Shown piece after piece: positions 1 to 64,000 of a stretch of DNA of 64,000 nt. Both the position numbers and the translations under genes were made by a program. This stretch comes from Antarcticibacterium sp. 1MA-6-2 (GTDB lineage Bacteria > Bacteroidota > Bacteroidia > Flavobacteriales > Flavobacteriaceae). The stretch spans positions 2,852,001 to 2,916,000 of the forward strand of contig NZ_CP091036.1 of NCBI RefSeq assembly GCF_021535135.1, given 5' to 3'. The notes beneath the pieces were generated by a model. It ran no database searches. It saw only the letters and a list, made by a program, of their open reading frames with translations, and was not told where the DNA came from. Position 1 is the stretch's first letter, and the number at the start of each line of letters is the position of its first letter.

Positions 1-836
1 CATTCCCTCGTCCTCCTTATAATCTCTTTTTGTACTAAGATTATAGCTGGCAAAGAAATTAAGCCAGTTATTTTTATAATACTGGCTAGTACCAACAAGA
101 TATTTGGGTACAACCCCAATGGCATAAGTTGCATTTAAGCTTCCTTTGTAGCCAATAGATGGATTTGTGCTGGTTTGTATATTTAGAATAGCTCCACCTT
201 CTGCGTCATATTTCGCTGGAGGATTGGTAATAACTTCAATAGATCGCACATTTTCTGCGGAGTAACCTTCCAGTAACTGCTGCAGTTCCTGGCTGGTAAG
301 ATATACACGCCTGTCGTTGATGTAAACTACCGCTAAGTAAGTTCTTCACCAGCAACTGCCCCTGGCTTTCAATTACACCCGGGGTGCGTTTAAGGATTTC
401 ATACGTATTCCCTGTGGAAAGAATAGAATTTTCTACATTAAATACCAGCAAGTCTATGCTCCTGCTTACAGTAGGTCTTTTTCCCGTTACCGTGACCTCC
501 TCCAGTGCTCCTGCGTCCTCATTTAAGGTAATCTGGTCAAGATCCATGTCGCTTCTCACTTCCACTTTTTGAAGATATCTTTCAAAACCCACAAAACTCA
601 CGGCGAGGACATACTCGTCACTAAGCTATATCCTCAAAAAGATAGTTCCCATCCTCATCAGAAACCACACCCCTGTAAACGGTGACAGTATCATTTTTAA
701 ACAAAACCACATTTGCAAATGCTACCGGGTTTTGGTTGTTATCCTGTAAATTGCCCTTTAGGGTATGTTGTGAATAGGAAGAGAAGGAGCCCGATAATAC
801 TATCAGTATGAAACAACTGAAGGAGAAATTCTTCAT
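1..836 (-). CDS. Outer-membrane beta-barrel (TonB-dependent receptor-like) protein, 3' end outside window, two frame breaks
   Basis: The start codon is at 836 and the gene runs off the left edge. The protein opens with a signal peptide ending near SSYSQ, then a carboxypeptidase-regulatory-like beta-sandwich (QHTLKGNLQDNNQNPVAFAN region) and a plug-like segment with an LEEVTVTGKRP motif. It continues with a VVYINDRRVYLTSQELQQLL segment and an EVITNPPAKYDAEGG segment, the pattern of the outer-membrane beta-barrel family related to TonB-dependent receptors. It probably sits in the outer membrane; the substrate is unknown. The frame is broken at about 620-626 and 332-338. Changing each to CTGG (GCTGGT and ACTGGC on the coding strand) gives one continuous protein to the window edge. 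It lies 140 bp downstream of the NagZ fusion on the same strand, so co-transcription is possible. The family is clear; the ligand is not. Confidence 0.8.
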
Positions 837-976
837 TCTTAATGATGAGTAAATATTTCTAAAATATGTAGGGCTGAGACAAATATACTATTTCTTTAAA
901 AACATAAAAGTTATTCTGAATAAAGTTGAAAAAAACCTTAAGGAAGTGCATTTTTACCTGAAGAAACCTCTTTCTT

Positions 977-3900
977 TTAATGGTTCTGCTCCATCGAATC
1001 GTAAAGCGCCTGCTGGATTTTGGTGCGGGTATTTAGCTGGTATAACCTGGTATTTTCCCTGGTTGGCAACACCCGGTTAGATAGAAAAACATACAAAAGT
1101 TTGGTTTCAGGATCCATCCATACCATAGTTCCCGTAAAGCCTGTATGACCATAGCTTAAAGCTGAAGCCCCGGGAGCAGCATTACTGTCAACAGTTCTTT
1201 CTCCAAAAGCTAGCTTGTCAAATCCCAGGCCGCGTCGATTCTTATTTTCCGGAAACTGGTAGCGGGTAAATTCTTCCACGGTTGCTTCAGAAATGTATCT
1301 TTTGCCAGCATAGCTGCCTTTGTTGAGATACATCTGCATCAATTTTGCAAGATCATTGGCATTAGAAAATAATCCCGCATTGGCTGAAATTCCGTTCATC
1401 ATAATAGCACCTTCGTCATGAACTACTCCGTGAATAGGACTGTTCCTGAATAAAAAATCATGTTCTGTAGGCGTTATATCACTCAGCATGAACTTCTCAA
1501 GCGGGCGGTAAGTAAGGGAATTAGCACCAAGAGGCCCGTAAAATTCCTCATCCAGATATTCAGTATAATTCTCTCCTGAAAGTTTTTCCACGATTTCCGG
1601 AAGCAGATAAAAGGTGAGGCCCGAATAAAGATATTTCTTTTGCTCACTCACTAAGTGATTTTTTTATTTCTCTATAGATCTTCTTTTTGTAGTTCCTGTG
1701 CAACCACATATCTTCCGCCACTTTTATAGGGTACCTTGCGGAAGAGTCCTTCTTAAAAGTATTCCATTTGTAACTGCCGTTCCTGCGGATGGTGTTCCTC
1801 CAGTAAGGGATCCATGCCTGGAATCCTGCCTGATGAGCCAGAATTTCCCGGAAGGATATTCCTGATTTATTGGATCTTCTGAATTTTGGCAGATAAGTAT
1901 CTATTCCTGCTTCCAGATCAAATTTTCCCTCATCTCTTAACTTCATAAGGGCAGGAAGTGCTGAAGTAACTTTTGTAATGGAGGCCAGATCATAAAGATC
2001 TGTGAGTTTGACTTTTATAGTATCGGTATAACTGTGGTGGCCGTAGGCTTTATGAAAAATAACTTTCTGATCCTTCGCCACGAGCACCTGTCCTCCCGGA
2101 ATTGCCCTTGCGTTTATTGCTTCCTGCATCAACGAATTTATCTTCGTACCGAGTATTTTTGAATCCATTCCTGCTTCTTCAGGAAGGGTATATTTGAATC
2201 TTAGTCCGCCTTCAAGTTCCAGTCCAGCTCCTGCTTTAAATTTTTCACCTACAGTTACAGGAAGTTTTCCGTTTGCACCAACCCCACCAAAGATGAGTTG
2301 CGCTGCAAGATCTTCAGAATTAAGATTATCCTGATAGGTAAGGATTAGCCCCGGTGCGGCTTCTATTTCATCAATTTGATTGAGCAGATAAGGATTCTTA
2401 AAAAAGGCAATTATTGTATTTTCTTTTGCTGAAAGTTCTTTCAGAAGAGATAAAGCTAAGTCCTGCCAGGTTGAGATTATTCCGCGGATATTTGCTCGAA
2501 TCGTGAACTCCCGCAATCACCATATTGTAAGGCTGAAGCAAAGCTCTTATGCTATCCACCTCTTCTTCTGAAGCTTCAAACGGAAGATTAAAATTCGCAG
2601 TACCCGCATATAAACCTACAGATCTCTGGAAAGTGGTTTCTTCTTCCTTTCCGAAAGAAAGGCTTGCAATAGAATGTTTATTTAATTCTTTAACAGGCAG
2701 AATATCTCCTTCATTTTTTAAGACTGTTAAAGAGGCTTCAGTAAGCTTTCGGTTCATCAAAGCTACTTCGGGAGAATTGAGTTCTTCGATGATATTATAT
2801 AAAGGAGTCGGTTTATAGTTATCCAGCCCCACCCACTGTTTCACCGCCAGAATCTTTCTGGCTCTCCTGTCAATTTCGGCCTGGGAAATCAATCCTGCGT
2901 TTATGGCTTTTCTTATTTCTTCAATGGCTTTGGGAACATCTTCCGTAAATTCGAGAAGATCATTTCCTGCTAAAAGCGCATCTTTATCGACAATTCCGGG
3001 AGTATTTCCTTCGGTCACTCCTTTCATATTCATAGCATCAGTCACCACGAGTCCTTTAAATTTCAGTTTCTTTTTAAGTAGATCTGTAATGGTAGGATAG
3101 GAAAGCGTGGAAGGAACGCCAGTAGAATCCAGGGAGGGAATATTGAGATGCGCAACCATGACCCCACTTGCCCCTGCCTTTAGCAACTCCTTAAAAGGAT
3201 AAAGCTCCAGAGAATCAAGACGGCCAAAAGAATGGTTTATTTGCGGCAGGGAATAATGAGAATCAACATCAGTATCCCCATGCCCGGGAAAATGCTTTGC
3301 TGTAGTTAAAACATTTTCTCCCTGGGAGCCTTTTACATAAGCCACCCCTTTTTTTGCTACATTATATTTATCTTCTCCAAAAGAACGATAATTAATCACA
3401 GGATTCCCTGCATTGTTATTGACGTCAACCATAAGCGCAAAATTCATATGCAGTCCAACCCTTTTTACATCCCGGGCGATTTGTGCTCCCATATTGTAGA
3501 TCAGGCTATCATCTTTAACAGCTCCCAGCGCCATTTGGAATGGAAAACTAACGGTACTGTCCAGTCGCATTCCCACTCCCCATTCTGCATCTATTGCTCC
3601 CAGAAGAGGAACTTTGGAAGCGGCCTGATATTCATTCATCAATTTCACCTGCCTTACCGGGTCTCCCTGGAAAAAAAGTACTCCCCCAACTTTTTGTTCT
3701 TTAATAAGTTTCAGGGTTTCCTCCTTATGCTTTTCGTCCCGGTTAGAGTATGCAGCAATCATAATAAGTTGTGCAACACGTTCATCGGGAGATAAGGTAG
3801 ACATAATGGAATCTACCCATTTGCTGTTTTCATATTTAAGAAATTCCGGAGCCACCCCTTCGGCTTCCTGGGCAGAAAGATTGTTGCTGAATAAGCATCC

Positions 3901-3987
3901 GGCAAAAATCATTAGCATTAAAATACGGGAATTGGAAAAGATAGTTTTGAAGAACCTGAGAAAGTTGATAAGCATATATTTTGACAT
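977..3987 (-). CDS. nagZ: NagZ-type GH3 beta-N-acetylhexosaminidase fused to a serine beta-lactamase/esterase domain (two frame breaks)
   Basis: The restored protein is 1002 residues. A signal peptide ends near LSAQ (residue 40), so it is exported. Residues about 60-400 form a GH3 domain with KHFPGHGDTDVDSH at 231-244 (the His244 dyad typical of NagZ) and the nucleophile Asp317 in VVTDAMN. A GH3 C-terminal domain follows to about 600. From about 610 there is a class C beta-lactamase-like serine hydrolase with SITK at 669-672, Tyr787-Ser-Gly and His947-Thr-Gly. NagZ removes GlcNAc from muropeptides. The second domain resembles the family of Bacillus AmiE, which splits MurNAc from L-Ala, so the fusion may do two successive steps; that is inference. 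The frame breaks are at 2455-2461 and 1650-1656, both repairable to ACTGGY. It is divergent from the amidase gene at 4108. Confidence 0.9.
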
Positions 3988-4107
3988 CTGTTAACCTGCA
4001 GGGAATTTAAGTCTTTTTTTCTACTTTTAAGTCGGCAGGAATAGAGCTATTAGAATTTGTTCCTGTTAATTACCTTATAAAAGAAAGGTTCATCAACAAA
4101 CACACCT

Positions 4108-5037: not shown

Positions 5038-6270
5038 CTATCCTTTAATTTCTTCAGCCTTTTCTGCGGCAGGTTCGTTGAAGATGTCATTTTTCTTAAG
5101 GTAGATAAGCCTGTCGTGAACTTCCCCGGCAACACGCTTGGAACGCAAATATCTGTTGTAGTTATACTCGTCAAAATCCTCTGCCTTTTGATCCATGTTA
5201 CTAATGTGGACATCTCCCATAGAATGGATAAATTTATTATCTCCAATCCACATTCCAACGTGAATCACCCTTTCTGAAGTTGAATCAGTCGCAGGACGGC
5301 CAAAGAACAAAAGGTCTCCCGGAATAAGATTTTCAAAATTACGGGTGGAGTCTACCTGTTCTCCTGTTGCTATTTGTTGAGATGCATCCCTTGGAATAAT
5401 TAACCCATTGAGAAAAAATACTGTTTTGGTATAACCGCTGCAGTCCACTCCTTTAGAGGAAGTACCTCCCCATAAGTAAGGTAATCCCATTAGATCTTTG
5501 GAGGTATCCACTAGACTTTCTCCATTTAGTTCAACATTCTCCAGCCATTCGTCGTAAGGCTTTGCATTCTGCTTTTCTACAAAGGCAACACGACCGTCAG
5601 GATATTTGATTTGGTAAAAATTATTCTGCTCTCCCTGAAGCTCAAAAATATTCCCTGCAACAACATCAGAAATTCTTTCAGAATCCCTGTTTGCCTCTTT
5701 ATATGAAAATCCGAATGGCTCCAGGTAGATCAGTTTTTCAGCAGCTTTCCAATTTTTATATTCTGAATCGGAAAGAAGTTCAACTCCGCCGGAATCCACC
5801 CAGGCCAGGTAATCATCGGGGGTTTGAATTAAATACCAATTGTCACTCTTTTTGTATACGTTCACCTAAGCATTCCTAAAGTTGCCTGAGTTACAAGTTC
5901 AGATGAATGTCCAGGTTCTCCTCTAAGATTGGCTACAGAAATTTTTACAACTGCCTTTGAGATTTCCCTTACATCTTCAGAAGGTAAAACAAGAATGCTA
6001 TCAGTAAAAGAAATTTCTTTTTTCTTTAGCCTTGCTCTAAGGCTGTCTACCGCGGCAGGAAGATTTGATTCCCCACGTAAAAAGACCTCTTCTCCTTTTT
6101 CTTCAGCTTCCACGTTGAACATCGCTACCCTGCGATCAGGCGCAAATTCATTGGAAACCTCAGCAATCACATCCTGTGCCTGCAGGAAAGATTCATTTTC
6201 CTTTTCCTTGTTCTCACAGCTAAGCTATTACCAGCGTGCTAAGAGTTAAAAAAACGAGCTTCTTTATCAT
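5038..6270 (-). CDS. SH3-NlpC/P60 peptidoglycan endopeptidase lipoprotein (two frame breaks)
   Basis: The restored protein is 409 residues, starting at 6270. Repairing 6219-6225 to GCTGGC on the coding strand recreates a lipobox (VIAGC), direct support for the repair. Repairing 5864-5871 to GCTGGT joins a bacterial SH3 domain (VANLRGEPGHSSEL onward) to the rest. A second SH3-like segment is near residues 180-240. The C-terminal NlpC/P60 domain carries GVDCSGYTK (catalytic Cys about 276), His about 336 in VIHVGMWIG and a downstream polar residue in FIHSMGDVHI. The architecture matches YkfC-type gamma-D-Glu-diamino-acid endopeptidases that trim muropeptide stems. The L-Ala-D/L-Glu epimerase lies just upstream on the same strand, the expected metabolic partner. 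The stop abuts the convergent amidase stop. Confidence 0.88.
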
Positions 6271-6280
6271 AATGTTAGTA

Positions 6281-7333: not shown

Positions 7334-9004
7334 TTAAAGGTCTTTGGGTGAAACCTCTATTTCATTGAAACTACTTTGATTCCCTGTTCTGTCTACCGCG
7401 GTCACTCCAACATGAGTAAGAGGAGTTTTGCCGTTTGATAAACGGTTAAGTTCTGTATTACGTTCATTTCGATTAAGAATTTTATAATTCCAGACGTCAT
7501 TGTACTTATAGTAAACCACCCACTTAAAGGCTTCGCCTTCCGGCAGATGCCAGTTTAAGTTAACCTTATTATCAACAATCTCCATATTAACCTTTGGAGC
7601 AGCAGGAAGAATTGGGTTTATCCAGGGGCTTTCAGGCACCAAAGCCTGGGTTTTATAGGGTCCATCAACGATTCCTTTTGAGATATTGGGATACTTCAAA
7701 AGAGGTCCTATGCTCCAGTGAATAGTTCCCTTACTATCCGGCACCATTCCCCGGGTGAGCATTATCTGGTTTACTGTTTCATCAAGATTTAATGCATCCC
7801 CTCCAAAATCAATATTTATCCCGGGCCAAAGATGGCGTCGATGATGATTTTCACTTTCCCACCAGCCAAGAAGCACAGGAAAACTCTGCTTTGTCTGATT
7901 TATCTTCCAGTATAACTGCGGGGAATAGTAATCTATCCAGCCTTCGTTTAACCACAATTTTGCATCGGCATATAATTCAGCAAACTGGTCCATTCCGGCT
8001 ATAGATTTGGGATATCCCGGTCTGTAAATTCCGAAGGGACTAATCCCAAATTTCACTTTGGGTTTTACGGCTTTAATTTCTTTATAGATCCGCTCCACAA
8101 ACTTGTTTACCCCATCCCTTCTCCAGTCATCTTTAGTAAGTTTTCCACCTTCCTTTAAATAAGCAGCATAACTCGCAGCATCGGGAAAGTCGGCTCCTTT
8201 ATTATAGGAAGCATATGGATAAAAATAATCATCAAAATGAACTCCGTCGATGTCGTACCGGTTTACTATGTCCATTACAACTGCAGCAGTATGATCCTGG
8301 GTTCCCTTTTTAGAAGGGTCCAGCCAGTACATCCCGTTTTTGAGTGCCACTACAAGTTCCGGATGAGTTTTCACAATTGAAGCAGGTGTTATTGGACCAT
8401 AGGTGGAATGGTGAGCGCGGTAAGGATTCAGCCAAACGTGAAGCTCCAGGCCACGGTCATGAGCCGCCTCGATCCAAAATTGTAACGGATCATAATAAGG
8501 CTCCGGTGCTTTCCCCTGAGTTCCGGTAAGGAAAAAAGACCAGGATTCGAGATTGCTTTCATAAAGAGCATCGGCCTGTGGTCTTACCTGGAAAATAGCT
8601 GCATTATAATTGTGCTTCTGAAGAAAATCCAGAAGGGCGATAGCTTCTTTTTGTTGTTCCGCGACTGAAAGTCCTGATTTGCTCGGCCAGTTGATATTTG
8701 CTACGGTTGCAATCCACGCTGCACGAAATTCTCTCATTACGTGCGGCGACTTTTTTACTATCTGCACCGCAGGAGTTTCTTCTTCTTCAATAGCCTCTTC
8801 CAGTATTTCTACCGGAGCAGGCTCCTCTATCACAGAAGGCACAGGTTTCTCGGCCTTTGCAGGAACTTCAACAGGAGCAGGTTTAGGTTTTCGTGGAACA
8901 GACTTAGATGAGGAACATCCACTTAATACAAGTGTGATAGCGATGAAAAGGGTGATATATAATCTGGGGTGCAACATGGGGTAAAGTAAAATTTTAATTT
9001 TCAC
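7334..9004 (-). CDS. Family 10-like glycosylhydrolase lipoprotein (DigH/YngK, GHL10 group)
   Basis: The protein has 556 residues if it starts at 9004; Met10 (8977) is an equally good start and places the lipobox Cys (LVLSGC) at a usual distance. A Pro/Glu-rich linker covers about residues 35-85. The GHL10 TIM-barrel domain covers about 90-430, with the family's REFRAAWIATVANINWP opening, HVWLNPYRAH, VHFDDYFYPY and ISPFGIYRPG segments. A C-terminal fibronectin-like domain covers about 465-556. E. coli DigH of this family cleaves glycan strands stripped of stem peptides, and the neighbouring amidase and endopeptidase would produce such strands, so the same role is likely here (inference). It is probably the first gene of the 9004-5038 operon. 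Confidence 0.85.
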   Translation of the reverse strand: MKIKILLYPMLHPRLYITLFIAITLVLSGCSSSKSVPRKPKPAPVEVPAKAEKPVPSVIEEPAPVEILEEAIEEEETPAVQIVKKSPHVMREFRAAWIATVANINWPSKSGLSVAEQQKEAIALLDFLQKHNYNAAIFQVRPQADALYESNLESWSFFLTGTQGKAPEPYYDPLQFWIEAAHDRGLELHVWLNPYRAHHSTYGPITPASIVKTHPELVVALKNGMYWLDPSKKGTQDHTAAVVMDIVNRYDIDGVHFDDYFYPYASYNKGADFPDAASYAAYLKEGGKLTKDDWRRDGVNKFVERIYKEIKAVKPKVKFGISPFGIYRPGYPKSIAGMDQFAELYADAKLWLNEGWIDYYSPQLYWKINQTKQSFPVLLGWWESENHHRRHLWPGINIDFGGDALNLDETVNQIMLTRGMVPDSKGTIHWSIGPLLKYPNISKGIVDGPYKTQALVPESPWINPILPAAPKVNMEIVDNKVNLNWHLPEGEAFKWVVYYKYNDVWNYKILNRNERNTELNRLSNGKTPLTHVGVTAVDRTGNQSSFNEIEVSPKDL

Positions 9005-9182: not shown

Positions 9183-10337
9183 ATGAAAAAAATTGTCATA
9201 GCCTCTGATTCGTTCAAAGGATCGGTAACCTCAATGGAAGTAGCCGATGCAGCCGAGACAGCGATTAAAAGAATATTTCCCGGGTGTGAAGTGGTAAAAA
9301 CAGCGGTGGCAGATGGCGGGGAAGGCACTATAGAGGCTTTGGTAGGTTCCTTAAACGGCACAATTATAAACTGCACAATTAAGGGTCCTTTAATGGAGCC
9401 AGTAACTGCGCACTACGGAATCCTTGGAGATAACACCACTGCGGTAATAGAAATGGCCTCGGCAAGCGGCTTAACTTTAATTCCGGAAGAACAAAGAAAT
9501 CCACTCCTTACCTCTACATTCGGAACAGGAGAACTAATTAAAGATGCGCTTGAGCGCGGCTGCCGAAAATTTCTGATTGGTATAGGTGGTAGTGCCACAA
9601 ATGATGCAGGTACAGGAATGTTGCAGGCACTGGGCTTCAAATTTTTGAATAAAGAAAACAGAGAATTAAAAAACGGCGGTCAGATATTGAAAAATATTTC
9701 AGCCATTGACCGTTCCGAAGTTATACCTGAAGTCTTTAATTCCAATTTTACTATTGCTTGTGATGTAGAAAACCCCCTCACAGGACCAAATGGAGCGGCT
9801 CACGTGTATGCAAAACAAAAAGGAGCTGATGATGAAATGATCGCCGTTTTGGAAGAGGGAATGAAACATTTTGCACAGGTAATAGCAGAAAGAGAAGGTA
9901 AGGATATTGAAAAAGTTCCGGGAGCTTAGGTGCGGCCGGAGGACTTGGAGGAGGATTCCTTGCATTCTTAAATGCGGAACTTAAACCCGGAGTAGAAATG
10001 GTGCTTGATATTATCAACTTCAACAAACTCATAAAAAATGCTGACCTGGTTATCACTAAGCGAAGGAAAAATGGATAAGCAAACAGGAATGGGAAAAGCC
10101 CCGGGAGGAGTACTAAAAGCTGCCGGAAAACAAGATATTCCCGTTATAGCTATTGGAGGTTATGTTGAAGAGGTTTCAGAATTAAATGCGATGGGATTTC
10201 TTGCTGTACTTCCTATACTTCCGTTTCCTGCCACTCTGGAACAGGCGATGCAGAAAGAATTTACCAGCAACAACATAACCCGAACCCTTGAACAACAGCT
10301 TAGGGTAATACATTACTTTAACTCCCAAAACATATGA
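9183..10337 (+). CDS. Glycerate kinase, GlxK/GarK family (two frame breaks)
   Basis: The restored protein is 383 residues, normal for this family. The N-terminus KKIVIASDSFKGS is the family signature. It continues through GGEGT and GIGGSATNDAGTGMLQALG to a C-terminal GEGKMDKQT segment. The frame is broken at 9924-9931, where GCTGGT now reads GCTTAGGT and an AAGGLGGG run is recovered after repair. It is broken again at 10055-10061, where ACTGGC is inferred and gives VITGEGK. It should phosphorylate D-glycerate. The stop overlaps the start of the GntP permease by four bases, so the two are translationally coupled and probably handle the same small acid. Why this pair sits between murein genes is unclear. 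Confidence 0.85.
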
Positions 10338-11587
10338 GTGCAATAGGCGCTTTAGTCGGCTTGATTTTATCAATTGTTCTCATCATCAGAAAGGTCTCCC
10401 CGGCCTACAGTCTTATTCTCGGTGCTGTTGTTGGTGGATTACTGGGAGGTTTTAGTTTAGCTGAAACAGTTGAATATATGATCTTAGGAGTCAAAGACAT
10501 TACTCCTGCCATTATAATAATACTCACAGCGGGAATACTTTCAGGAGTATTAATAAAAACAGGAGCTGCAGCCTCAATCTCAAATACGATTATCAGGAAA
10601 TTGGGGGTTACCCACGTCTATATGGCCTTAGCCCTCGCTACCTTTTTTCTCACCGCCATTGGTGTTTTTATTGACGTAGCTGTTATTACGGTTGCCCCTA
10701 TAGCACTTAACATTGGCAAAAAATTATCCATACCTAAAGCCATTCTCCTGCTGGTGATGATTGGAGGAGGGAAATGCGGAAATATAATTTCACCCAATCC
10801 AAACACCATAATTGCCGCAGAAAATTTTGAAGCTGACTTATTTTCGGTAATGTACGCGAACATACTACCAGCACTTCTCGGTCTATTATTTACTGTTTAC
10901 GTAGTAGCGAGATTTATGCTTAGGTAAAGGGGGACCTTGTGCAGGAGGAAGATGTTGAAAAGGAGCTGGAAAATCTGCCTTCCTTTTTTACAAGTATGGT
11001 AGCACCAATTGTGACAATTCTCCTTCTTGCTATGCGGCCTTTACTGGGTTATGGCATTGATCCTCTAATCGCCCTGCCAGTGGGAGGAATAGCCGGGGTT
11101 TTTGCAATGAGAAAAGTGAATACCCTGCGGGAAGGAATGAGTTATGGCCTTGCAAGAATGTCTGTTGTAGCTATTCTTCTGGTGGGAACGGGTACAATTG
11201 CCGGAATTATTAAAGCTTCTACAATTAAAGATGTGCTCCTCGATTCGCTTGCAAATACAGGTTTGGGAGAAGTTTTGATCGCACCTCTTTCCGGAATATT
11301 AATGGGTGCCGCGACAGCTTCATCTACAGCGGGAGCTACTGTTGCTTCTGCCTCATTTGCCGAAATTATTCTAAATGCCGGCATTAGCGGCATTTGGGGA
11401 GCTGCCATGATAAATGCTAGGTGCGACAGTGCTCGATCACCTGCCTCACGGCTCTTTCTTCCACGCTACAGGAGGAGTAACCAATGTAAGTATAAATAAC
11501 AGGATTAAAGTCATACCCTACGAGACTGCCATAGGTTTCTTCCTTACCTTCTTTTCGGTACTGACTTATCTACTAATTAGAAGTTGA
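10334..11587 (+). CDS. GntP-family organic acid permease (two frame breaks)
   Basis: The restored protein is 416 residues with about 12 hydrophobic segments. A GGGKCGNIISPNPNTI segment and a GATVLDHLPHGSFFHATGG-type segment near the C-terminus mark the GntP (gluconate:H+ symporter) family. Frame breaks at 10918-10925 and 11416-11422 both repair to GCTGGT. The second repair rejoins the NAGATVLDHLPHG motif, which is otherwise out of frame. The start overlaps the glycerate kinase stop (ATGA). GntP proteins move gluconate, glycerate and similar hydroxy-acids. With the kinase next door, glycerate is the simplest substrate, but D-lactate released by MurQ is also conceivable (inference). The gene ends 2 bp from the convergent murQ stop. 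Confidence 0.85.
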
Positions 11588-12560: not shown

Positions 12561-13825
12561 GTGGAGGACCAGAATTTTCTAGTACAACAATCTCAACAGA
12601 CAGGTCTAAGTAATGTTCAACGTAAGAAAACTCTTCAAAAGATTAGTATTCTTCAATACCTCTATTTCCAGGGAGCCAAGACAAATTCTGAACTCTGTGA
12701 AGCTTTTAATATTAGCTCCCCAACCTCAATAAGACTTCTAAATCAACTTATAAAGGAGGGCTGGATCCTTAAGGAAGGCCGGGGTAAATCTGCTTAGGTG
12801 GAAGAAAACCAGATCTTTATAGATTAGGTCAGGATTGTTTCTTTATGCTGGGAATACAGGTTGAAAGGTTTAATATTAAAATGGCCTTATTTGATAATCA
12901 CAACAACAAGAAGCTGGAGATTACCGATATTCCATTTAGTATTGATGAAGAAGTAAGTGTAGTAGAGCATCTTTATGAGAAAGCCAACGAATTACTACAA
13001 AGTTCAGGAATAGACCAGGATAAGCTTTTGGGAATAGGGATAAGTATGCCCGGTTTAGTATCTTCTGAAGAAGGGAAAAACTTTACATACTTTCTAAAAG
13101 AAGAAGAATCAGAATCCCTGGAGCACCTCTTAAGACAAAAATTTAAAAAACCCGTTTATATCTTAAATGATGCAAAAAGTGCCTGTTTAGCCGAATCCAA
13201 TTTTGGACTGGCTAAACATAAAAAAGATGTACTTGTAATCTCCATGGACTGGGGTATTGGGCTGGGAATAATAATAGACGGAAAAACGTACCAGGGCTCA
13301 TCAGGTTTTGCAGGAGAATTTGGGCATATTCCGCTTATAGACGACGGTATACTCTGCTACTGCGGAAAACGCGGTTGCCTGGAAACTGTAGCGTCGGGAA
13401 TGGCTATTGTACGAATTGCTAAAGAAGGAATTAGTGCCGGGGAAAGCTCAATTTTAAGTAATTTATCTAAAAAAGAAATTGAAAGGCTTCAGCCGGAATC
13501 TATAATAGACGCTGCAAACAAAGGAGACCAATTCGCTATAAAAGTGCTTTCTGAAGCAGGAATAAATCTGGGTAAAGCTATTGCAATAATTATTCAGCTT
13601 TTCAATCCTGAGCTTATCATACTGGAAGGAAAGTTTGCTGATGCAAAACAACTTATTACTACTCCTATTCAGCAATCCATCAATAAATACTGTATGGTCC
13701 AGCTTAGAGAGAAAACAGTTATTTCTCTTTCTAATATTGGAAAAGACTCAATACTACTGGGGTCTGTCGCCACAGTAATGGAAAAAGTATTTGAGAACCA
13801 AATAAAAATAACACATAACCTTTAA
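12561..13825 (+). CDS. ROK-family transcriptional regulator (NagC/Mlc-like), one frame break
   Basis: The restored protein is 420 residues from a GTG start, as no in-frame ATG is near. Residues about 20-75 form a winged helix-turn-helix (ILQYLYFQGAKTNSELCEAF and following). The remainder is a ROK domain with VISMDWGIGLGIIIDG and an intact zinc motif CYCGKRGCLE. The break at 12792-12799 repairs to GCTGGT and gives a GRGKSAGGRKP segment, the normal end of the HTH domain in this family. Such proteins repress amino-sugar genes and are released by a sugar or sugar-phosphate. Position suggests control of divergent murQ and of nagB 31 bp downstream; the inducer (perhaps GlcNAc-6-P or MurNAc-6-P) is inference. 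Confidence 0.88.
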
Positions 13826-30847: not shown

Positions 30848-32451
30848 CTAATAGCCAGGATTTTGACTTAAACCCGGTTCTACCTTTAAATTACTTTCAT
30901 GAAATGGCCATAAATACATATGAGGTTCAAAACGTCGTTCTTCTATAAATAAGGACTGTAATTCACCATTTACTTTTCTGGTGTGTCCAAGAGCAGGCTT
31001 GTTTAAAACATCTTCGGCAATTCTCCATCTTATTATATCATCATATCTCAAACCTTCCCCGGCAAATTCAATTCTTCTTTCATTCCATATTAGATCGATC
31101 CAATCCTGCTGGGAGTAGGAGGAGTAACGAGGCAGAGTAACATCAGCTTCGGTCATGTCCAAACCAGCTCTTTCCCTAATCAGGTTAATTGCATTCTTGG
31201 ACAATTGATCTGGTTCCCCCATCATGATTTTTGCTTCAGCATAAGTTAAGAGAACCTCAGCGTATCTTAGTAAAGGAAAATTCATGTCACCACTACAAGC
31301 ACCTCTAAAAGCATCAGCTTCATCTACGAACTTTTTCCACCAGTATCCCGAAGCACTGGCTCTTGTGTTTTCGTAAAACATTGGGCTATTAGGATTGTAA
31401 ATATTAATGGTATCTTCATAGAAGATATCACCATGACCAATAATTGTAGCTTCAAATCTTGGATCACGGTTTAAATCGGGATTTAATACATATTCTTCTC
31501 TCGTATGGCGCGTATCTTCATCAATTTTATTTCCCTGCAGGGTCCAATACGAGTCCACCAGATTTTTTAAAGGAACTACGAATGATTCACCGGGACCTGT
31601 TCTATAATGTGGACCGAGATGGCTAAAGGAATAAGTACCCCCGGAATGGCTAGCCATATCCTGCCACATTATAAATTCATTATTACTATCTGTTCCTTCA
31701 TACATGAACAAAGCTTCGTAATCTGGATATAAAGAGTAATTTCCACTGTCCATAATCTCCTTTGCAAGTCTTGCCGCCAATTCATAACGCTCATTGTAAA
31801 GAGCATATCTCATGGTCAAAGCTTTAAGAGAATATTTGTTGAACATGTAACGATCTGAGGTGTACTCCTCTTCGGGCAACCTGTTGGCAATTTCTTCAGC
31901 CAAAGGAAAAATAGTAGCCAGTATTTCCTCTTTAGGAGTGGTAGGTTGTGTCGCGTCGGCTAAATTTGCTTAGGTTCCAAATAAAAGGGAACATCGCCCC
32001 ATTGAAAGGTCAGTTTAAAATAATGCCAGATTCGCAAGGCTTCCAGTATACTTTTATACTTTGTCCTAATCGCTTCATTCTCCACATAAGGTTGATCTAC
32101 ATTGGCAATAAAGGTGTTTAATCTTCCTAAATGTTTCATATGGAGATCCCAATAATACGCCATTCCCGGTGTACTGCTGTTTAAACGCCCATTTGCTATA
32201 GCCTGATGATGATCCCCCTCAATTCGGGAATAAGCATTATCAGACCTACCATCCAACATATAGAACAATGTCCTGCGGTTACCTGTATGAGTAAAAACAT
32301 CTAAATAACTACTATACACTACCCGTCTCAAATCTTCTTCATCATTAAAAAACTCATCAAAAGAAGTAGCTGTAGGATCTGGCCTATCCAAAAAATCATC
32401 ACAGCTCATTAGACTGAAGGAAATGAGGCAGATTATTATTATATTTTTCAT
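30848..32451 (-). CDS. SusD-family outer-membrane lipoprotein, locus 1 (one frame break)
   Basis: The restored protein is 533 residues with lipobox Cys17 (SLMSCDDFLD). The SusD N-terminal pattern (DFLDRPDPTATSFDEFFNDE, EALRIWHYFKLTFQWGDVP) and C-terminal RagB/SusD domain (LTYAEAKIMMGEPD, IWNERRIEFAGEGLRYDDIIRWR, LSQNPGY end) are present. The break at 31968-31975 repairs GCTTAGGT to GCTGGT, giving YLEPANLADATQ. It binds glycan at the cell surface as the lid of the SusC channel encoded 22 bp upstream. Ligand specificity is not readable. Confidence 0.93.
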
Positions 32452-46984: not shown

Positions 46985-48287
46985 CTATACCAGAACCTTT
47001 GTAACACCAGGCACAGCAATATCCGGCCCTTTAAAATTTAGATCCCAGTTATACTTTTGCGGACCAAGAGATTTCTCAGAATTCATTGCCTCTTCCCAGG
47101 TTATCGTTTGGCCACTATAAGCAACCATTCTGCCCAAAATGCCCATCATTGAACTATTTGCAGCACGTTCCCCATCATTAATTGCTTTCCCCTCACGAAT
47201 GGACGAAAATAAAACGTCATGCTCAGTTTGGTACATATCATTACTTTCACCATCATATTGCCAACTATTCTCTCCAGTAATCAAATGTTTATTGCCTTCA
47301 TAAAAAGCATTTCCCTTCGTTCCAAATATTTCCAGAGAATTCTCAGTTGAAGCTCCATCCTGCTGCCGGGTAAAAGTATATGCTTTGGCTCCATTCTCAT
47401 ATTCATATTCCGTAGCAAAATGATCATAAATATTCCCAAATTTTGGCTCGACCCGGGCTTGTCTTCCTCCAGATCCAGTAGCCCTAACAGGTACTTTATC
47501 TCCCATTGCCCACGAGATCATATCAAGGCTATGCACAAACATTTCAACAATAAAATCTCCTGAAAGCCAATTGTAGTAGTACCAGTTGCGCATGTGGTAT
47601 TCCATATCACTCCATTCCGGCTGTCTTGGCTTGTACCATAATCCACCACCATTCCTGGTAGAGGTTAGGATTTTTACGTCTCCTATTTGTCCATCCAATA
47701 CTCTTTGGTAGAGGGCTTGCTTAGGGAAATGGTATCGAAAGCAGAATCCCGATACTAAAGAAAGGTTCTTTTCCTTTGCAACCTTTGCTGCATCTAAAAC
47801 CTTTCGAACGCCAGGACCATCTACGGCCACAGGTTTTTCATAAAATACATGTTTACCTGGCCTCCACTGCAGCAGCCAAATGATTGGGTCGAAACCCGGG
47901 AGGAGCGGCCAGCAATACCACATCAACTCCAGAATCAATAAGCTTTTGATAAGCATCAAAACCTACAAATTGTCGTTGTTTCTCAACCTGAACTCTTCCT
48001 CCATGGGCTTTTTTCATTAATTCAAGAGAGCTCTTCAGGCGGTCTTCAAAAGCATCTGCCATAGCGTAAAGAACTACATCAGGATCAGCATTTAATGCCT
48101 GTACAGCAGCTCCTGTACCTCTTCCTCCACAACCTATTAAACCAACTCTTAGGGTATCTTTCTTTGCGGCAAACATAGGAGTTGGAAAGCCCAGGTTTAA
48201 GGCCGCTGTACCGTAAAGAAGAGCCGCACCTGTAGATTTGATAAAGCTCCTTCGATCATTTATTAATAATTTTTTATTATTTGTCAT
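46985..48287 (-). CDS. Tat-exported Gfo/Idh/MocA-family oxidoreductase (one frame break)
   Basis: The restored protein is 433 residues. The N-terminus has a twin-arginine-like NDRRSFIKSTGAALLYGTAAL signal. The Rossmann segment is RVGLIGCGGRGTGAAVQAL, followed by VDVVLLAAPPGFRP and, after repair, AVEAGKHVFYEKPVAVDGPGV. The break at 47865-47871 reads GCCAGGT where GCTGGT (or GCAGGT) is expected. The C-terminal domain carries SGDFIVEMFVHSLDMISWAMGD. It probably works in the periplasm on a glycoside at C3 together with the DUF1080 protein encoded directly downstream. It lies below the SusC/SusD-2 pair, separated by a hairpin. Confidence 0.88.
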
Positions 48288-48464: not shown

Positions 48465-50026
48465 TTAATAGCCGGGGTTCTGCGTAATTACATCGTTTAT
48501 ATCCATTTCACTTGCAGGAATAGGCCAGCAATAATCTCTTGGTCTAAAGCTTGCTATCTGTCCATAGTCCATTATTTCCCATTGACTAAGCCGCATTTAA
48601 ATAATACATACCCTGAAGCAGACCTGCCTTTTCTTCACCAATTTCCCATCGGTTTATATCAAACAGGCGTAATCCTTCAAAAGCCAGCTCCCGCGCACGT
48701 TCATCTCTCACAAATTGCCTTAGCTCTTCCTGACCTAAACTTTCTGATACGGGAGGCATCTCTACTGTGGGACGTTGCCTAACCTGGTTTATGGCGTCAT
48801 ATACAGACTGGTCTATTTCACCCAATTCTATTTTTGCTTCAGCATACATTAAAAGAACATCAGCATATCTCATCAGGATCATATTAGTTTCACCAAGGTC
48901 AGGATTAGCAGCATACGCGTCATAATCTACCCACTTCTTAAGGTTAAAACCATACAGGGTTGACCATTCACTTCCACTCACCCTATCAGGAGTATCACTT
49001 GTGGGCCAGGAATTATAGATGTTGTTTCCAATAGGTTGCCCGGTGTAATAAACATTATAATCCCATCTAGGATCTAAATTTGCATATGGATCATTGGGAT
49101 CAACAGGACCTACATGTTCATACTTCTCATATAAACCCATCATTGGTTCAACAGTGGAATTTCCACCAATAGAAGCTGCGGAATATCCAAAGTTATTATA
49201 AGTGTCTCCTCCTACTGCATACTGCTAGGTCAAAAATTACTTCCTGGGAATTTTGCCCTTCCACTTGAAATAGTTCTTCATAATCCGGATACAGGCTATA
49301 AATACCTAAATCCATAACAGCCTGTGTAGCATCACGCACCACTTCAAATCTATCGTTTCGTAATGCTGCTCTTGCTTTTAAGGTTAATGCAGCCCCATGG
49401 GTTGCCCGACCTAAATTATCACCCGTATAACTTAGAGGAAGAGCATTTGAATTGATTATCATATCCAATTCATCAATAATAAAATCTACTATCTCTTCTC
49501 TACTGGTAGTAGGTCTTTGATCATTTACATCTATAGGCTCTGTAATTAATGGCACATTACACCATAAGCTCGAAAGTTGAGTGTAATAAAAGGCTCGCAG
49601 GAAACGTGCCTCAGCCTCCAATCTATCAAGCACTTCCTGATCTCCTCCTTCTATCCTGTCTATATTGGCAAGTACATCATTTGCTTTTCGAATACCTCTG
49701 TAATATCTGTTCCAAATTCCTGTAATGGTTCCATTCGAAGGATCTATTTCACCCAAACGTACGTCGTTGAATGTTGGTACGTTTGATGCAGAACGAAATC
49801 CAATATCTGTTATACCATCAAGTTCAATTACCGACTGGGTGTTGTCCAGTTCATTATATACTGCATTTACAGCCAATCTTGCATCTCTTTCAGTTGACCA
49901 ATAAACAGTTTCAGAAACTGCCCCGGTAGGCTCCAGATCCAATCCACTGTCTAAACCATCTTCACAACTAAAGAAAAAGGCGATCGCTATAAATAATACA
50001 CTTTTTGTTATATTAAATTTTCTCAT
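48465..50026 (-). CDS. SusD-family outer-membrane lipoprotein, locus 2 (two frame breaks)
   Basis: The restored protein is 519 residues with lipobox Cys21 (AFFFSCEDG). N-terminal SusD features are EPTGAVSETVYWSTERDARLAVNAVYNEL and ARFLRAFYYTQLSSLWCNVPLIT. The C-terminal features are ILMRYADVLLMYAEAKIELGE, FVRDERARELAFEGLRLFDINRW and an end in ITQNPGY. Frame breaks at 49224-49230 and 48585-48591 both repair to RCTGGY, giving FDQQYAVGGDTYNN and LNAAGQWEIMDYGQ. The true stop is at 48465-48467, beyond the second break. It pairs with the SusC protein encoded 24 bp upstream. Confidence 0.92.
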
Positions 50027-50050: not shown

Positions 50051-53000
50051 CTAAAAAACCACATTTAAACCGACACTCATAGTTTTGGTTTGTGGAAAGA
50101 ATTGGCTCCTTCCCCTAGGAGTTTCAGGATCAAAAAGATCTTGAGGAGTGAATGTCAACATGTTCTCCCCTGATACATAAATTCTAAAATTTGATACGAT
50201 GTCCTGATTTACAGTATAACCCAATTGAAAGTTTTTTAATCTGGCATATTTACTGTCAATAAGCCAAAAATCTGATTTTACGATATTCCAGGAATTACCC
50301 GATGTCACTAATGGCCAGTCACCATTTGGATTTCTTGTGGGATGATAAGCTCTCTCCACCATTTCCTTATGTACAAAGTTTTGAAAAGCAGGCCCTTCGG
50401 GAATTGCTCCATCCAATAAATGTTGCTTCTTCAACACACCCTGCCAAAACATTGAAAAATCAAAGCCTTTATACGAAGCGTTAAATCTAAGACCAAACTC
50501 ATATCGCGGATCTTCATTACCAATTATTACCTGATCTCCTCCGGGAGCAAAAGATTGTGTAATTGCTCCATCCCCATTAACATCTCTATAAATTATATCT
50601 CCAATTCCCACAGCAGGGTGAATAGTTGCAGGATATTGCTGTAAATCTGCATCAGTACGATAAAGGCCCGGGGAAGACAATCCTCTTAAGGCATTCATAG
50701 ATTCACCCTCAGTCCATATTGAGAAATTATCCGGGAAAAATGGACCCGCCCCGTTCAAATCCTCTATTTTGTTTATAACATCTGAAAAATTAACTCCTAC
50801 AGAATAATTGAATCCATCATCAGACCGGAACGGACTCTGATAATTAAGACTAAGTTCATAACCATTATTTGATACCGCTGCTGCATTTTGAACAGGAGGA
50901 TTCACACCTATGGTTCTTGAGATAGGTAGTTCAATTAAAATATCGTCAGTATATTTCCAAAAGTATTCCGCAATAAAACCTATTCTTCCATTAAGGAAAG
51001 TAGCATCCAATCCAACATTCGTCATAGTAGATGTCTCCCAGGTTATGTCTGGATTACCAGCCTGTGTTATGGCAGCACCAGGAACCACATTACCTCCGAA
51101 CTGGTAGCCCTGATTTAAATTATAGGTACTTCTAAATCTATTAAGCCCAATATTCTGGTTACCTAATTGACCCCAGGATCCTCTCAATTTTATATTGCTG
51201 ATTACAGAATTATCAACAACATCCTGCATGAAGGCTTCGTTGGTAATATTCCATCCGGCAGAAAGAGAAGGGAATAATCCCCATCTGTTCCCTTCACCAA
51301 ATCGTGAGGAACCATCATATCTTAAGTTGGCCTGAAGTAAATATCTATCGTCAAAGGAATAATTAACTCTACCAAAAAAGGATCTAAGACGCCATTCCTG
51401 ATTATATCCACTAATTCCCTGATTATCCACACCACTAAGCATTAAATCCCGAAGATCGTTGTTAAAGAAATTTTGACGACGCGCCACTACATTTTTAAAC
51501 TGGTTATAAATTTCTTCATATCCTGCTAGAGCTTCCACTTCGTGCACACCAAAATCTTCATCATAATTTAAATACAGCCTTTGACTCAATTCTCTTTCAG
51601 TATTTCCGGTTTCGGTCATTTGATTTGTCGCAAACCAGCCTGATACTGCAACAGGTTCCCCTGTTACATAATGTCTCATTCCCGCAAGACTATTCATAAA
51701 TTGAGATGTACCCTGGTTTTCAAAATTGTAAGTAACATTTCCCTGTAGGGAAAGTGTAGGGAAAATATCATAATCAAAACCTACCTGAGCAAAAGCATCA
51801 TCTTTAAGCCTTTTTGTCTCACCCTCATTTGCCATTGCATGAGGATTCCAATAACCAGATACAAGATCATAAGTTCCATCTGGATACCTCATCACCACAT
51901 TTCTGTTAATGTGCAAAAGACCCTGAACAATTTGTTGACCTGCTATTCCGGCCCCGTTTATAGCATGACCCGGCCCACTGAAATTTCCATTTCTATACAT
52001 GAGGCCCAAATTAAATGTCAACTTATCATTTGCATATAAATCGGCATTTATACGCATTGTAGCTCTCTTGTTGTTAAAGTTTTGAAGAATACCATCTGAA
52101 TCATTATAATTTAAGGAAGCAAAGACCTTTCCTACTTCCCCACCACTGGAGATAGAGAAGGAATGCTGTTGCATAAGAGCATCTTCATTAAAGATCCCCT
52201 CTTCCCAAAGTGCCCAGGGAAATTCATAAGGATTAGTACCTGCAAGCACGTTTTGTATATATTCTTCACTGTAAGTAGGAGTACCTCCTGCATTTACCTG
52301 AGCTTCATTTTCTAACCTCATCCATGACTCCGTATCGGCCGCTTCAGGGAAAAAACTAGGATTTTGAATCCCTACGAAGGTATTGTAAGAAATAGTTGTA
52401 CTGAACAGCACCGCGTTTAGTGGTTACAAGAATAACCCCGTTTGCAGCCCTGGACCCGTAGATCGCGGCAGAAGCGGCATCTTTTAATACAGAAATAGAT
52501 TCAATATTCTGAGGTTCTACAGAACTTAATGATTGTTCAACCCCATCTACTAATACCAAAGGGTTTGCGTTGTTCAGGGTTCCTATACCACGAATACGGA
52601 TTCCCACATCTTCAACCCCTGGTGCTCCTCCCTGGTTCATTATAGTTAAACCCGGGGACTGGCCCTGTAAAGCTACAGCTGTACTTGTAACAGGCCTTTG
52701 CGTAAGTTCCTCCCCATTAACAGAACTAATAGCACCTGTAACATTAGCCCTTTCCTGGGTACCATAACCCACAACCAGAACCTCTTCCAAAGCTTGTGCA
52801 TCCTCCTGCAAACTAACGTTTATAGTAGTATCCCCTCCAACTGTTCTACGTATGGTCTGCATACCTACATAAGTAAAGATCAATACTGATTGGGGAGATT
52901 CCACAGCAATTGAGAAATTACCGTCAAAATCTGTTAGAACACCGTTATTCGTTCCTTCTTCCTGGATGGTAACACTGGGAAGAGGCATGCCGTTTGCATC

Positions 53001-55731: not shown

Positions 55732-56381
55732 CTATTCAAATAACAGAAGACCAAATTCCTTATATTCATGAAAAGATTCCCCTGTCTCTTGCCACGACCA
55801 AACATCTGTCGATGGATGGTCATAGTCTACTCTATAAAAGTTTGCCCTCCATCTTGTCCCCGGCACAGGAGGAATGTTGTTTAGCGGTCTTAGTAATTTG
55901 TACGGGATAAAGAATTCGGCAGTCCAACCAGAAATGGTTGCAAGCTTTTGCTTTTCTCCCCCCTTGACACTAGTTGCGTGACGGGTTTTCCTGTCTTCAT
56001 CATAATGAAAAGGTTGCCACCTCACCAGATCACCATTTTCATTTGAAACTAAGATAGGTAATTCATGATTCAATGGTGATAATTCGTATTCAAAATATAC
56101 TAAGCCGGGTTTCGTCCGGCCAAAGAAACACTTCTACAACATCCTCCAGCCATAAATCCAGGAAATCTTCATCCATCGTTGCAGTCAGCTTTAAATCTTC
56201 GCAATCAAATAAGAAGTAGATGCTTAGTACCGGAATAAAGGATTTTTAATGCTGTAGCCAACTCTCTACCAGATTGTTTACGTTGAGGGAGTTTCAGCCA
56301 TTCTGTCTTTTCCCAATACTGATGAGTACCTTCTCCATTTATTTCAAAATCGGAAGATTTTTTTATGTATAACTTCTCCAT
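55732..56381 (-). CDS. Carbohydrate-binding family 9-like protein (two frame breaks)
   Basis: The restored protein is 215 residues from an ATG at 56381. It reads as a CBM9/DOMON-like beta-sandwich: GTHQYWEKTEWLKLPQ at the start, ALKILYSGTSIYFLFDCEDL, FLDLWLEDVVEVFLWPDE, TRLVYFEYELSP, GWTAEFFIPYKLL and GTRWRANFYRVDYDH. Breaks at 56222-56228 and 56099-56105 both repair to GCTGGT. No signal peptide is seen, so either the start lies elsewhere or the protein is cytoplasmic. CBM9-like proteins bind sugars; no catalytic role is known. It lies 34 bp downstream of the GH123-like gene, in the same transcript direction. Confidence 0.8.
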
Positions 56382-59358: not shown

Positions 59359-59389
59359 TATTTAAAAGTTATAAGTGGAATTTTTTACA

Positions 59390-61128: not shown

Positions 61129-63354
61129 TTAATTTACCTGAACTTCCCTCCTTTGACCATCATATCCTACTGCAAAGAACTTGTCTCCCGCCTCAGCGGA
61201 ATGGACTTTAAAATTAGCTCTGGGAGATACGAAAATCACTTTTCCCTCCCGCTCCTGCTCGTACACCACCGCATTTTGGGTGTTTAAAATGGTAACGGAT
61301 AGTCCTGAAACAATCGCTGACCCTCCTACAACACTACTTCCTGATTTATATAAATCCAGGTTTGAGTCTGTAATGTATTTCATGGCATCATCCGGCTTTG
61401 CATAAGCTTTCCCGGTTATGTATGCTTTCACCTCGTCAATCATACTTTGAGTAACGGTAAGATTGCCATCTCCATAATCGTTAATTTCCACATTCACCGG
61501 AGTAAGAAAGCCCCAGGCCTCAAAGAATTCCGTGAGATCTAAACTAAGCTACATCAGAGGCAATTTTTACAAATTCTAGTTGATGATGTCCATTAGTAGG
61601 TTCATTTTCTGAATTTCTAATTACTTCATGAAGATCTTTATAAAAATCTTTTTGACCCAGAACGTTAGAGACATAAAGCTCTAGTTGCCAAAAAGGTACG
61701 AGTTTTACAAAGACATCATTATGAGAGGGATGATCCTTACTAAGCAGCCAGAATTTCTGTAAAAGCTTTTTCATATCGGTTAGTGTAATTTTCCAACTCT
61801 TCTATATCAATTCTGGATTCATTACCCAGAGCTTTTTGGACATACAGGGAATATATATTAGTAGTTACTTCTGTTAACCCTAACCATTTTAAACCAGGAC
61901 GGGTTTGGTTAATGTGGCCCACCTCGTGTGCAGGCCCCCAGGGAGAAGATCTTAAAATTGCTGAATTCGCAATTGATGAAAGAGTGCTTTTACTATATTC
62001 CGTACGGTAACTGGTCGCAAACATATACATGTCCTGATGTACATTTACCCGAAAGTACATCCTGCTGGTATTTTCCCGGTTGTACTTATATAAACCTAAG
62101 AACTCCTGTTCGAGTTCTACTATTTCATCGTATAACTCAATTAATTCAATTGGTTTATCTGTGTACTGTTGAAATGCCGGAGTTGTAAAAGTCAGGTGAG
62201 AATATTTCCCCAGGACGTCAAAAAATTGATATGTAGTGTTATCTAAAAGATCCTGCCAATCAGCCTCTGTATGTTTTTCAATATCAAAATACCCATTCAC
62301 TTCTCCAGTGGCAAAATTTAAACTGACTTCTTTCTCCTGGTCGTCCTGAAAAATAAGGTAAGCTAAACCTTCTTCCCCATTTGTAGGGAATTTGTTAATT
62401 CCTGGTCTTATTGGAAAATCAACACCAGTAAATCCTTTCGTATGATCTACCACTCTTAAAAAAATTTCTCCATCAAAATCCCCGGCAAATACTACCATGT
62501 CTGCGTAGGATTTCACATAAATACCAGTAACATTATCATATATGCCGTAAGTTCCCGTTTTATTCCTGGTTGCTATAATGTTCGGGTTAGGATAACTTTG
62601 AAAAGTTCCTGTCCGGAATTCACTGTAGGTATGGTTAAACATTGCTTCGGCCATATTTTTTATAAAAATATTCTCAATATTTTCAATATCATTTATGGTC
62701 ACCTCCGGCTTCAGTTCTGTTGCAGACTTATCTCTAAAAATATCCAGGTCTTCACTTAAATTTTCTTCGTTATAGAATTCTATTTCTGCGAGGCTAGCAA
62801 AGTCCCCCATCCCTTTTGTAACTACCAGTTTAATTGCTGTGGGATCTTCAATTCCTTCAGGAAATGAAATGATCCTGGGAGCCGTACTTTCTGAATATTC
62901 ATAGGTATTCATTACCCGATAATCCACATCTCCTTCCGTCTTAAAATAGACGGTAAAGTTTAAAATTATACCATTTGTTCCACCGTCCCGGCGCGGATAT
63001 AAAACAGCATAATCTATGGTTTTTTCATCCGTTCCAAAAAAATATTCTAATGTAACAGGAAAGGATGTCTCACCATTCCAGGGGCTGTGATATATTGTGC
63101 TATAGTCACCATCAATAGATTTTTCTATTTCGCCGCCAGGTTGAAATTGGTTAGTGAGCACGTCCTTTACTAAGCACTTTGGTATTTGATTGTATTTTAT
63201 CTGTATCCCCGGGTTGATAAGGATTTGGTTCTAATACAGTGGGCGGATCTTCAGGCGGGTCTACAATTTCTTCAATTTTATCATCCGAACAAGCAAGAAA
63301 AAGACCCAAAATAATCAGAAATCCAAAATATTGCTGAGGTTTGTAATATTGCAT
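61129..63354 (-). CDS. M60-family (mucinase-type) metallopeptidase lipoprotein with discoidin domain (three frame breaks)
   Basis: The restored protein is 740 residues with lipobox Cys22 (LACSDDK) and a Pro/Asp-rich spacer. An F5/8 type C (discoidin) domain covers about 65-200. The M60 catalytic region carries HEVGH at 476-480 and Glu495, the gluzincin zinc site, within PAHEVGHINQTRPGLKW. A C-terminal domain covers about 540-740. Breaks at 63169-63175, 61739-61745 and 61543-61549 all repair to GCTGGT and give KVLVKDVLTNQ, ILAAGKDHPSHN and DVAGLDLTEFF. M60 enzymes cleave glycosylated proteins such as mucins. It is followed by a terminator and preceded by another discoidin-domain gene. Confidence 0.92.
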
Positions 63355-63387
63355 ATTGAGTATTGAAATTTTAATTCCCTTAAAGAG

Positions 63388-63424
63388 AATACAGATCCCG
63401 TAATTTTCTTCCGGGATCTGTATT
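63388..63424 (-). terminator. Strong hairpin after the discoidin-domain gene
   Basis: A 13-bp perfect stem (AATACAGATCCCG / CGGGATCTGTATT) with an 11-base loop lies 19 bp after the stop at 63443 on the minus strand, between the two genes. It may terminate or attenuate transcription between the discoidin-domain gene and M60. Confidence 0.65.
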
Positions 63425-63442
63425 AACTATTCCCCTTTTCCA

Positions 63443-64000
63443 TCACTCCAGGATATAAGGACTCACTTCTCCTAAAGCAGTAAAAGCCGCCCCTCCATCA
63501 TTGTATCCCGATTTCACAATGATCTTTAAGTATTTAAAGCTTTGCAATTCCTCAAATTCAATTAATTGAAGTGCGGTTATGTCCTGTAGATTAAAGTCTC
63601 CTAAGCTACGCCACTCAACATTGTCATTACTTACCTGAATTTCTATAAGCTCAATTCCACGTGTTCCACTTTGGCGTTGGGCAAATCCCAGACCACTGAC
63701 CTCGAGTTCTTCCTTCATATCTATGGTAATATGATGTGGATATGAAGATCCTTCTGCAGTACAGGAAGACCAACAGGAATGCCAAAAGGTTTCAATATTC
63801 CCATCAATTATTGCAGATGCATACCCATTTGTTGGACCCTCACCTCCAGCTTCTTCAGAACTTAGATCAATTACTTCCCAGGAATCCTTTTCGTAATATT
63901 TTGGTTCCGGTTCAGGAATAATTACTTCCTGAACTTCAAACAGAAGGATCTTTCTGTCTGGATTAATTGCGTAACCTGACGGGGATTCTATTTCTACGGC
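63443..64000 (-). CDS. Discoidin (F5/8 type C) domain surface protein, 5' end outside window
   Basis: An open frame runs from the right edge to the stop at 63443 without interruption (185 codons and a stop visible). The visible part starts with a strand-rich segment (ESPSGYAINPDRKILLFEVQEV), then a linker. An F5/8 type C-like domain follows: SWEVIDLSSEEAGGEGPTNG, IDGNIETFWHSCW, PHHITIDMKEELEVSGLGF and SFKYLKIIVKSGYNDGG, ending ALGEVSPYILE. The arrangement resembles BT_3987/DUF1735-type surface lipoproteins that bind glycans in SusE/F position. It is upstream of the M60 gene on the same strand. N-terminal signal and full length cannot be seen. Confidence 0.8.
   Translation of the reverse strand, partial: AVEIESPSGYAINPDRKILLFEVQEVIIPEPEPKYYEKDSWEVIDLSSEEAGGEGPTNGYASAIIDGNIETFWHSCWSSCTAEGSSYPHHITIDMKEELEVSGLGFAQRQSGTRGIELIEIQVSNDNVEWRSLGDFNLQDITALQLIEFEELQSFKYLKIIVKSGYNDGGAAFTALGEVSPYILE

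Follow-up and report, generated by a model that had tools for sequence, protein, structure and literature searches.

Why are so many genes within one stretch of a bacterial chromosome broken at what appears to be the same short string, and are these breaks mutations? The question is raised by a window of 64,000 nucleotides (the whole stretch of DNA analysed; positions 2,852,001 to 2,916,000 of contig NZ_CP091036.1) from Antarcticibacterium sp. 1MA-6-2, in which a first-pass annotation had attributed shared frame breaks to base-calling error at a modified hexamer, RCTGGY. Our analysis upholds base-calling error at a modified motif as the best reading of the breaks and replaces the motif with the palindrome RCCGGY. 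Frame breaks sit at strings of the type RC-core-GY, which are mostly one or two bases too long and are spread genome-wide; RCCGGY has been lost from the sequence and these strings stand in its place. The broken genes are almost certainly not mutations but the product of base-calling errors in the published consensus at RCCGGY, a site that the cell most likely modifies.

Frame breaks across the genome

Frame breaks were called with a reference-free hidden Markov model (HMM), a 3-periodic, fifth-order Markov design trained on long open reading frames (ORFs). Homology junctions from blastx comparisons with 1445 ORFs of relatives provided a second line of evidence. The HMM events and the hexamer expectations given below derive from a sample of 464 kb of this genome. 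This sample contained 123 HMM breaks (26.5 per 100 kb), compared with 13 and 17 breaks (6.5 and 8.5 per 100 kb) in 200 kb from each of two genomes of the same genus. The 5-mers most enriched at these events in gene sense were CTTAG, GCTTA and CTAAG. With 2.89 occurrences expected for each, CTTAG was found at 24 of the 123 events and CTAAG at 19, which bears out the earlier observation that gene strand is irrelevant. The break pattern is real, genome-wide and independent of strand.

This same count bears on programmed ribosomal frameshifting at CTTAG(G). The string CTTAGG is similar to known +1 shift strings, but programmed sites should appear in one orientation relative to the gene and both orientations were found. 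The varied lengths and shifts of the forms, together with their occurrence in untranslated 16S rRNA, further contradict frameshifting, whose probability we regard as next to nil.

A main form of the string lay within 25 nt of 51 of the 123 HMM breaks, compared with 3.0% of random positions, and accompanied none of the 13 and none of the 17 breaks of the two control genomes. In 50 of these 51 breaks the length of the form, modulo 3, accounted for the frameshift on the assumption of a six-base original.

Identity of the original hexamer

In aggregate the forms are palindrome-like (RCTTAGY and its complement RCTAAGY, RCTTAAGY, RCCTAGGY), and a palindromic original of the type RCNNGY was therefore considered. 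RCCGGY was the sole missing class of the 16 possible, with 8 sites seen and 120.7 expected, a loss of about 93%. When all 4096 hexamers were ranked by z for depletion, its four hexamers took the first four places, and ten other sampled genomes retained RCCGGY at 0.72-1.04 of expectation. In the whole genome, ACCGGC/GCCGGT occurred 19 times and the reversed control pattern 1038 times, while seven other whole genomes carried 614-2421 copies of the former. Neither CCGG in all contexts (1221 seen, 1120.8 expected) nor RCCGGR (376 seen, 263.4 expected) was depleted. Consequently, there is no general trouble with CCGG, and the loss depends on the palindromic flanks, as recognition by an enzyme would.

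RCTGGY behaved quite differently. It was not depleted in the sample, either under a higher-order model (391 seen, 393.5 expected) or when both strands were counted (395 seen, 389.0 expected), and in the window it occurred 117 times on either strand, the mean in dinucleotide shuffles being 72.6. It was also retained normally with respect to relatives, at 13 of 65 aligned sites here and 17 of 86 when one relative (G005) was compared with the others. By the same comparison, 0 of 106 RCCGGY sites aligned in relatives were preserved in this genome, compared with 12 of 81 for G005, where these counts refer to pairs that are not all independent.

Homologous proteins provide a test at the level of encoded residues. 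The blastx comparison delimited 35 junction loci, 23 of them with a form, or 24 when a wider window was used. Five of the 24 duplicated others in antisense, which leaves 19 loci, 17 free of residue slippage and 2 with it. At the 8 loci where codon phase separates RCCGGY from RCTGGY, the homologues carried Pro/Arg in 7 and Phe in 1, and never the Leu/Trp that RCTGGY would encode. The remaining 9 loci are uninformative; there, Gly was the second residue 8 times and Asp once. Phase was kept in all 32 alignment rows. The frame would likewise be preserved had the original been RCTGGY, and at codon phase 0 (9 of the 17 usable loci) the encoded residues would be the same, but the discriminating phase and the undepleted, normally retained RCTGGY contradict such an original. 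We therefore see hardly any chance that the error lies at modified RCTGGY/RCCAGY, and the methyltransferase specificity proposed with that asymmetric motif gives way to the palindrome. Since RCTGGY is not the motif, the copies at 292 and 6230 that had been taken as intact do not represent spared target sites; nor is it the case that only part of the sites is hit, given how few RCCGGY sites are left in the sample.

An alternative is that selection removed RCCGGY as a restriction site and that the breaks were caused otherwise. Avoidance by a host of its own methylated site is possible, since rCCGGy is described as under-represented with the methyltransferase DmtD (PMC4390886), and of the three genomes that carry a related restriction enzyme, two have a slight RCCGGY deficit (see below). 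However, the broken strings stand where relatives have RCCGGY (16S rRNA) or residues encoded by RCCGGY, and a six-base original fits all but one of the 51 frame errors, whereas avoidance would leave frames open. This alternative is exceedingly improbable.

The forms themselves are in excess. RCTTAGY occurs 1550 times on either strand (about 354 per Mb), compared with about 165-278 per Mb in four genomes of the same genus, and RCTTAGGY 324 times, compared with 114-222 in seven genomes of 3.4-4.4 Mb. Estimates of excess from flank products were too noisy and were discarded. By contig strand, which is arbitrary, RCTTAGGY is distributed 192 forward and 132 reverse (p 0.001), more unevenly than in seven other genomes, and RCTTAGY 740 and 810 (p 0.08). 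This asymmetry is suggestive only, the p values being uncorrected for the number of forms looked at; the unevenness of RCTTAGGY might reflect tie-breaking in the consensus.

The 16S rRNA genes

The genome has three 16S rRNA genes, nearly identical over about 1560 aligned bases, and the comparison of these copies provides the strongest evidence. At a first odd position the three copies read ACTAAGC, ACTAAGC and ACTGAC, where relatives have ACCGGC in 9 of 9 copies. At a second they read GCTTAGGT, GCTAAGGT and GCAGGT, and here relatives have GCCGGT followed by AAACCG in 4 of 9 copies and GCCAGT followed by AAACTG in 5 of 9. All three copies in this genome carry AAACCG, the companion of GCCGGT, so GCCGGT is the spelling that the context predicts. 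Independent decay at a single rRNA palindrome would not be expected of copies in one cell that agree elsewhere but for one difference of two bases, and we therefore read the breaks as consensus errors; the 16S copies establish nearly conclusively that the extra strings are error and not real DNA. Away from the RCCGGY positions, one copy (L186) differs from the other two (L182 and L175) by two adjacent bases, CC to TT. The three 23S rRNA genes score as in relatives.

The same comparison bears on a real, motif-directed process that would insert bases at methylated RCCGGY in the living genome, which the first-pass annotation had kept as its alternative. Such a process would yield the same sequence pattern, and a Vsr repair endonuclease does adjoin the candidate methyltransferase described below. 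However, it would need to have affected about 93% of the sites, some 1000 in 4.38 Mb by extrapolation from the sample, and to have altered 16S positions in all three otherwise almost identical copies, which differ from each other there. We judge it very unlikely.

Break strings in the window

The 18 positions that had been singled out as clear cases all begin an RC-core-GY string of 7-8 bases (18 of 18; chance per position about 0.004), with TAA, TTA, TTAG, CTAA or TAG as the core. As breaks, 13 of the 18 were called by the HMM or by homology junctions. No strand is assigned to the strings, which are located here by position in the window. Both methods called GCTAAGT at 332..338, ACCTAAGC at 5864..5871 and GCTTAGGT at 9924..9931, where a glycerate kinase piece ends. 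The HMM called GCTAAGT at 2455..2461, GCTTAGGT at 31968..31975, GCTAGGT in a SusD-like piece at 49224..49230, and ACTAAGC at 61543..61549 and 61739..61745. Homology supported ACTAAGC at 620..626, ACTAAGT at 1650..1656, GCTTAGGT at 10918..10925 (the end of a GntP-like piece, whose family match is below cut-off), GCTAGGT downstream of that piece at 11416..11422, and GCTTAGGT at 12792..12799, immediately before a ROK-family ORF. The remaining five match the string and were called by neither method, namely GCTAAGC at 6219..6225, ACTAAGC at 48585..48591 (adjoining a SusD-like piece), 56099..56105 and 63169..63175, and GCTTAGT at 56222..56228. The presence of SusC/SusD genes is indicative of Bacteroidota.

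Five further breaks had been set apart as odd, and none of the five contains a main form. One of them, at 19745-19752, does fit RCCGGY, with relatives carrying Pro-Val there. The other four lie at 42746-42753, 45671-45682, 47865-47871 and 52403-52409. Only two RCCGGY sites remain in the window, ACCGGT at 8257..8262 and GCCGGC at 11377..11382.

Nature of the error

We propose that the cell marks its DNA at the RCCGGY palindrome, cytosine methylation being the most likely mark, and that the sequencing platform or its base-calling model would misread the modified centre. The consensus would then carry strings such as RCTTAGY, RCTAAGY, RCTTAAGY and RCTTAGGY, most of them longer than the original by one or two bases, and genes that span them would appear frameshifted. 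Modification is put forward as the cause because the flank specificity is exact. To judge from the assembled sequence alone, the platform was likely nanopore, with reads that had received no short-read polishing. A homopolymer-compressing platform was tried as a candidate and set aside, run lengths falling inside the range seen in the other genomes or at its lower end, a result that is not decisive.

What would be expected of an artefact agrees in large part with what was found. Errors occur at one motif with exact flanks, though no main form accompanies 72 of the 123 HMM events. Neither gene strand nor coding status matters, errors being present in both orientations and in 16S genes. Near-identical repeats differ mainly at the motif, the three 16S copies having one further difference, of two bases. 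The pattern is absent from relatives, both in the ten sampled genomes and, for ACCGGC, in the seven whole genomes.

Several points weigh against this reading. The list of forms was compiled after the first events had been seen, and the formless majority of HMM events needs another account. Of these 72 events, 27 are near homopolymers (37.5%; random 21.1%), compared with 3 of 13 and 5 of 17 breaks in the control genomes, and 26 show the signature of start/stop overlap (36%; random 24%). Neither therefore explains most of the formless events. By z, the palindromes CTAG and CATG outrank RCCGGY among those avoided in this genome; note however that they are far less depleted in ratio and are also depleted in most other genomes. 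In three genomes bearing homologues of the candidate restriction enzyme described below, RCCGGY was counted 58, 131 and 29 times with 56.0, 164.0 and 40.3 expected, which does not confirm that this enzyme is tied to the motif. Ordinary 5-methylcytosine (m5C) need not cause insertions of one or two bases, and a 2025 study describes methylated motifs as mostly error-free with current models (PMC12392509). A bulkier or unusual modification, rather than plain m5C, would explain why the lost sites, roughly 93% of the total, so often gained a full base or two, though we give this only a slim chance.

Some formless breaks lie in genes conserved in relatives, including those for the alpha subunit of DNA polymerase III (L080 near 257), a cytidine/dCMP-type deaminase (L079 near 318) and Ku (L073 near 16992, within an A/G-rich run). 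These breaks suggest further sequencing errors or less common spellings of the one described here. When CCGG, WCCGGW, TCCGGA, TGGCCA, GCWGC and CTGCAG were checked as further targets, none was clearly depleted. The seven most avoided palindromes of this genome also include CTAG, CATG, TCSGA, CTSAG, CTNAG and GAWWTC, each of which is in the top seven of one or more other genomes. Apart from RCCGGY, no palindrome came to light whose depletion is peculiar to this genome and could account for the leftover breaks.

A candidate modification enzyme

Since neither A nor T is a fixed base of RCCGGY, a methyl group carried by every site would sit on cytosine. We searched the genome for two cytosine-capable methyltransferase families, PF00145 and PF01555. 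The search for a DNA methyltransferase, which had been recommended earlier, produced a single PF00145 (C5-cytosine) enzyme, a plausible modifier, of 394 amino acids at G000:C1:3945020-3946102 that also matches TIGR00675; PF01555 had no match in the genome at E 0.001. The enzyme belongs to a compact unit on one strand (L148:381-3974, within G000:C1 3943520-3947602) composed of Vsr (139 amino acids), the methyltransferase and an adjoining type II restriction enzyme of 359 amino acids, with PADLOC matches to MTase_II and REase_II. The restriction enzyme matches PADLOC PDLC03534 with 438 bits and is similar to proteins labelled PF27126; it has no sequence match in PDB and no curated Pfam match. 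Its relatives are common, with 2132 proteins at E 0.001. An integrase-family ORF (PF00589) adjoins the unit.

This methyltransferase, accompanied by its restriction enzyme and Vsr, is predicted to have RCCGGY specificity and probably makes the mark. Among the 395 genomes of the phylum that were searched, this one included, three others carry a restriction enzyme 76-80% identical, and these are the three whose RCCGGY counts were given above. They indicate at most mild avoidance and show neither a link between enzyme and motif nor its absence. The slight deficits belong to the stretches of G084 (131 sites) and G193 (29 sites) with the related enzyme (L191-L198 and L207-L210), and may be true site avoidance. 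A phosphorothioate (Dnd) mark was also considered and dropped. Guanine and backbone marks were examined through DndB alone, and the genome had no match to DndB (PF14072) in a search that did not cover other dnd/ssp genes.

Implications and comparison with known systems

By extrapolation from the sample, a genome presented as a single contig is apparently short of about 1000 RCCGGY sites and has altered 16S genes. Its pseudogenes, protein set and 16S sequences are not to be trusted as they stand. The combination of a depleted palindrome with look-alikes of changed length could flag such genomes and disclose their modification motif where only an assembly is available.

Motif-linked errors of related kinds have been described. 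Dcm motifs (CCAGG/CCTGG) accounted for about 70% of the consensus errors of the then-current default Oxford Nanopore Technologies callers in one K. pneumoniae set (PMC6591954). As in that case, where the mark was one that the model had not learned, errors here focus on one palindrome, probably methylated on cytosine; unlike it, the motif is RCCGGY and most break forms are one or two bases longer. Ambiguous positions induced by methylation in R10 data (PMC11610573) are likewise systematic, motif-linked miscalls in native bacterial DNA, but those cases are A/G and C/T ambiguities, and the main text makes no mention of insertion, indel or deletion. In the titles and abstract openings examined, on RCCGGY methylation or on RCCGGY together with nanopore, no nanopore errors at this motif are reported.

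The predicted modification also has counterparts. VchM and M.AvaIX/DmtD are RCCGGY-specific m5C methyltransferases (PMC4654547, PMC8112702, PMC4390886), and share with the candidate enzyme the C5 class and, if the prediction holds, the palindrome, a likeness by description. VchM is described as an orphan, whereas the candidate here is adjoined by a restriction enzyme and Vsr. In this respect the unit recalls the Cfr10I and BsrFI restriction-modification systems, which recognise RCCGGY. BsrFI is also named for RCCGGY in PMC4654547. If the inferred specificity holds, the unit would be, like these, a type II system acting on the same hexamer; it is set beside Cfr10I by recognition site only, its restriction enzyme matching PDLC03534 and proteins labelled PF27126.

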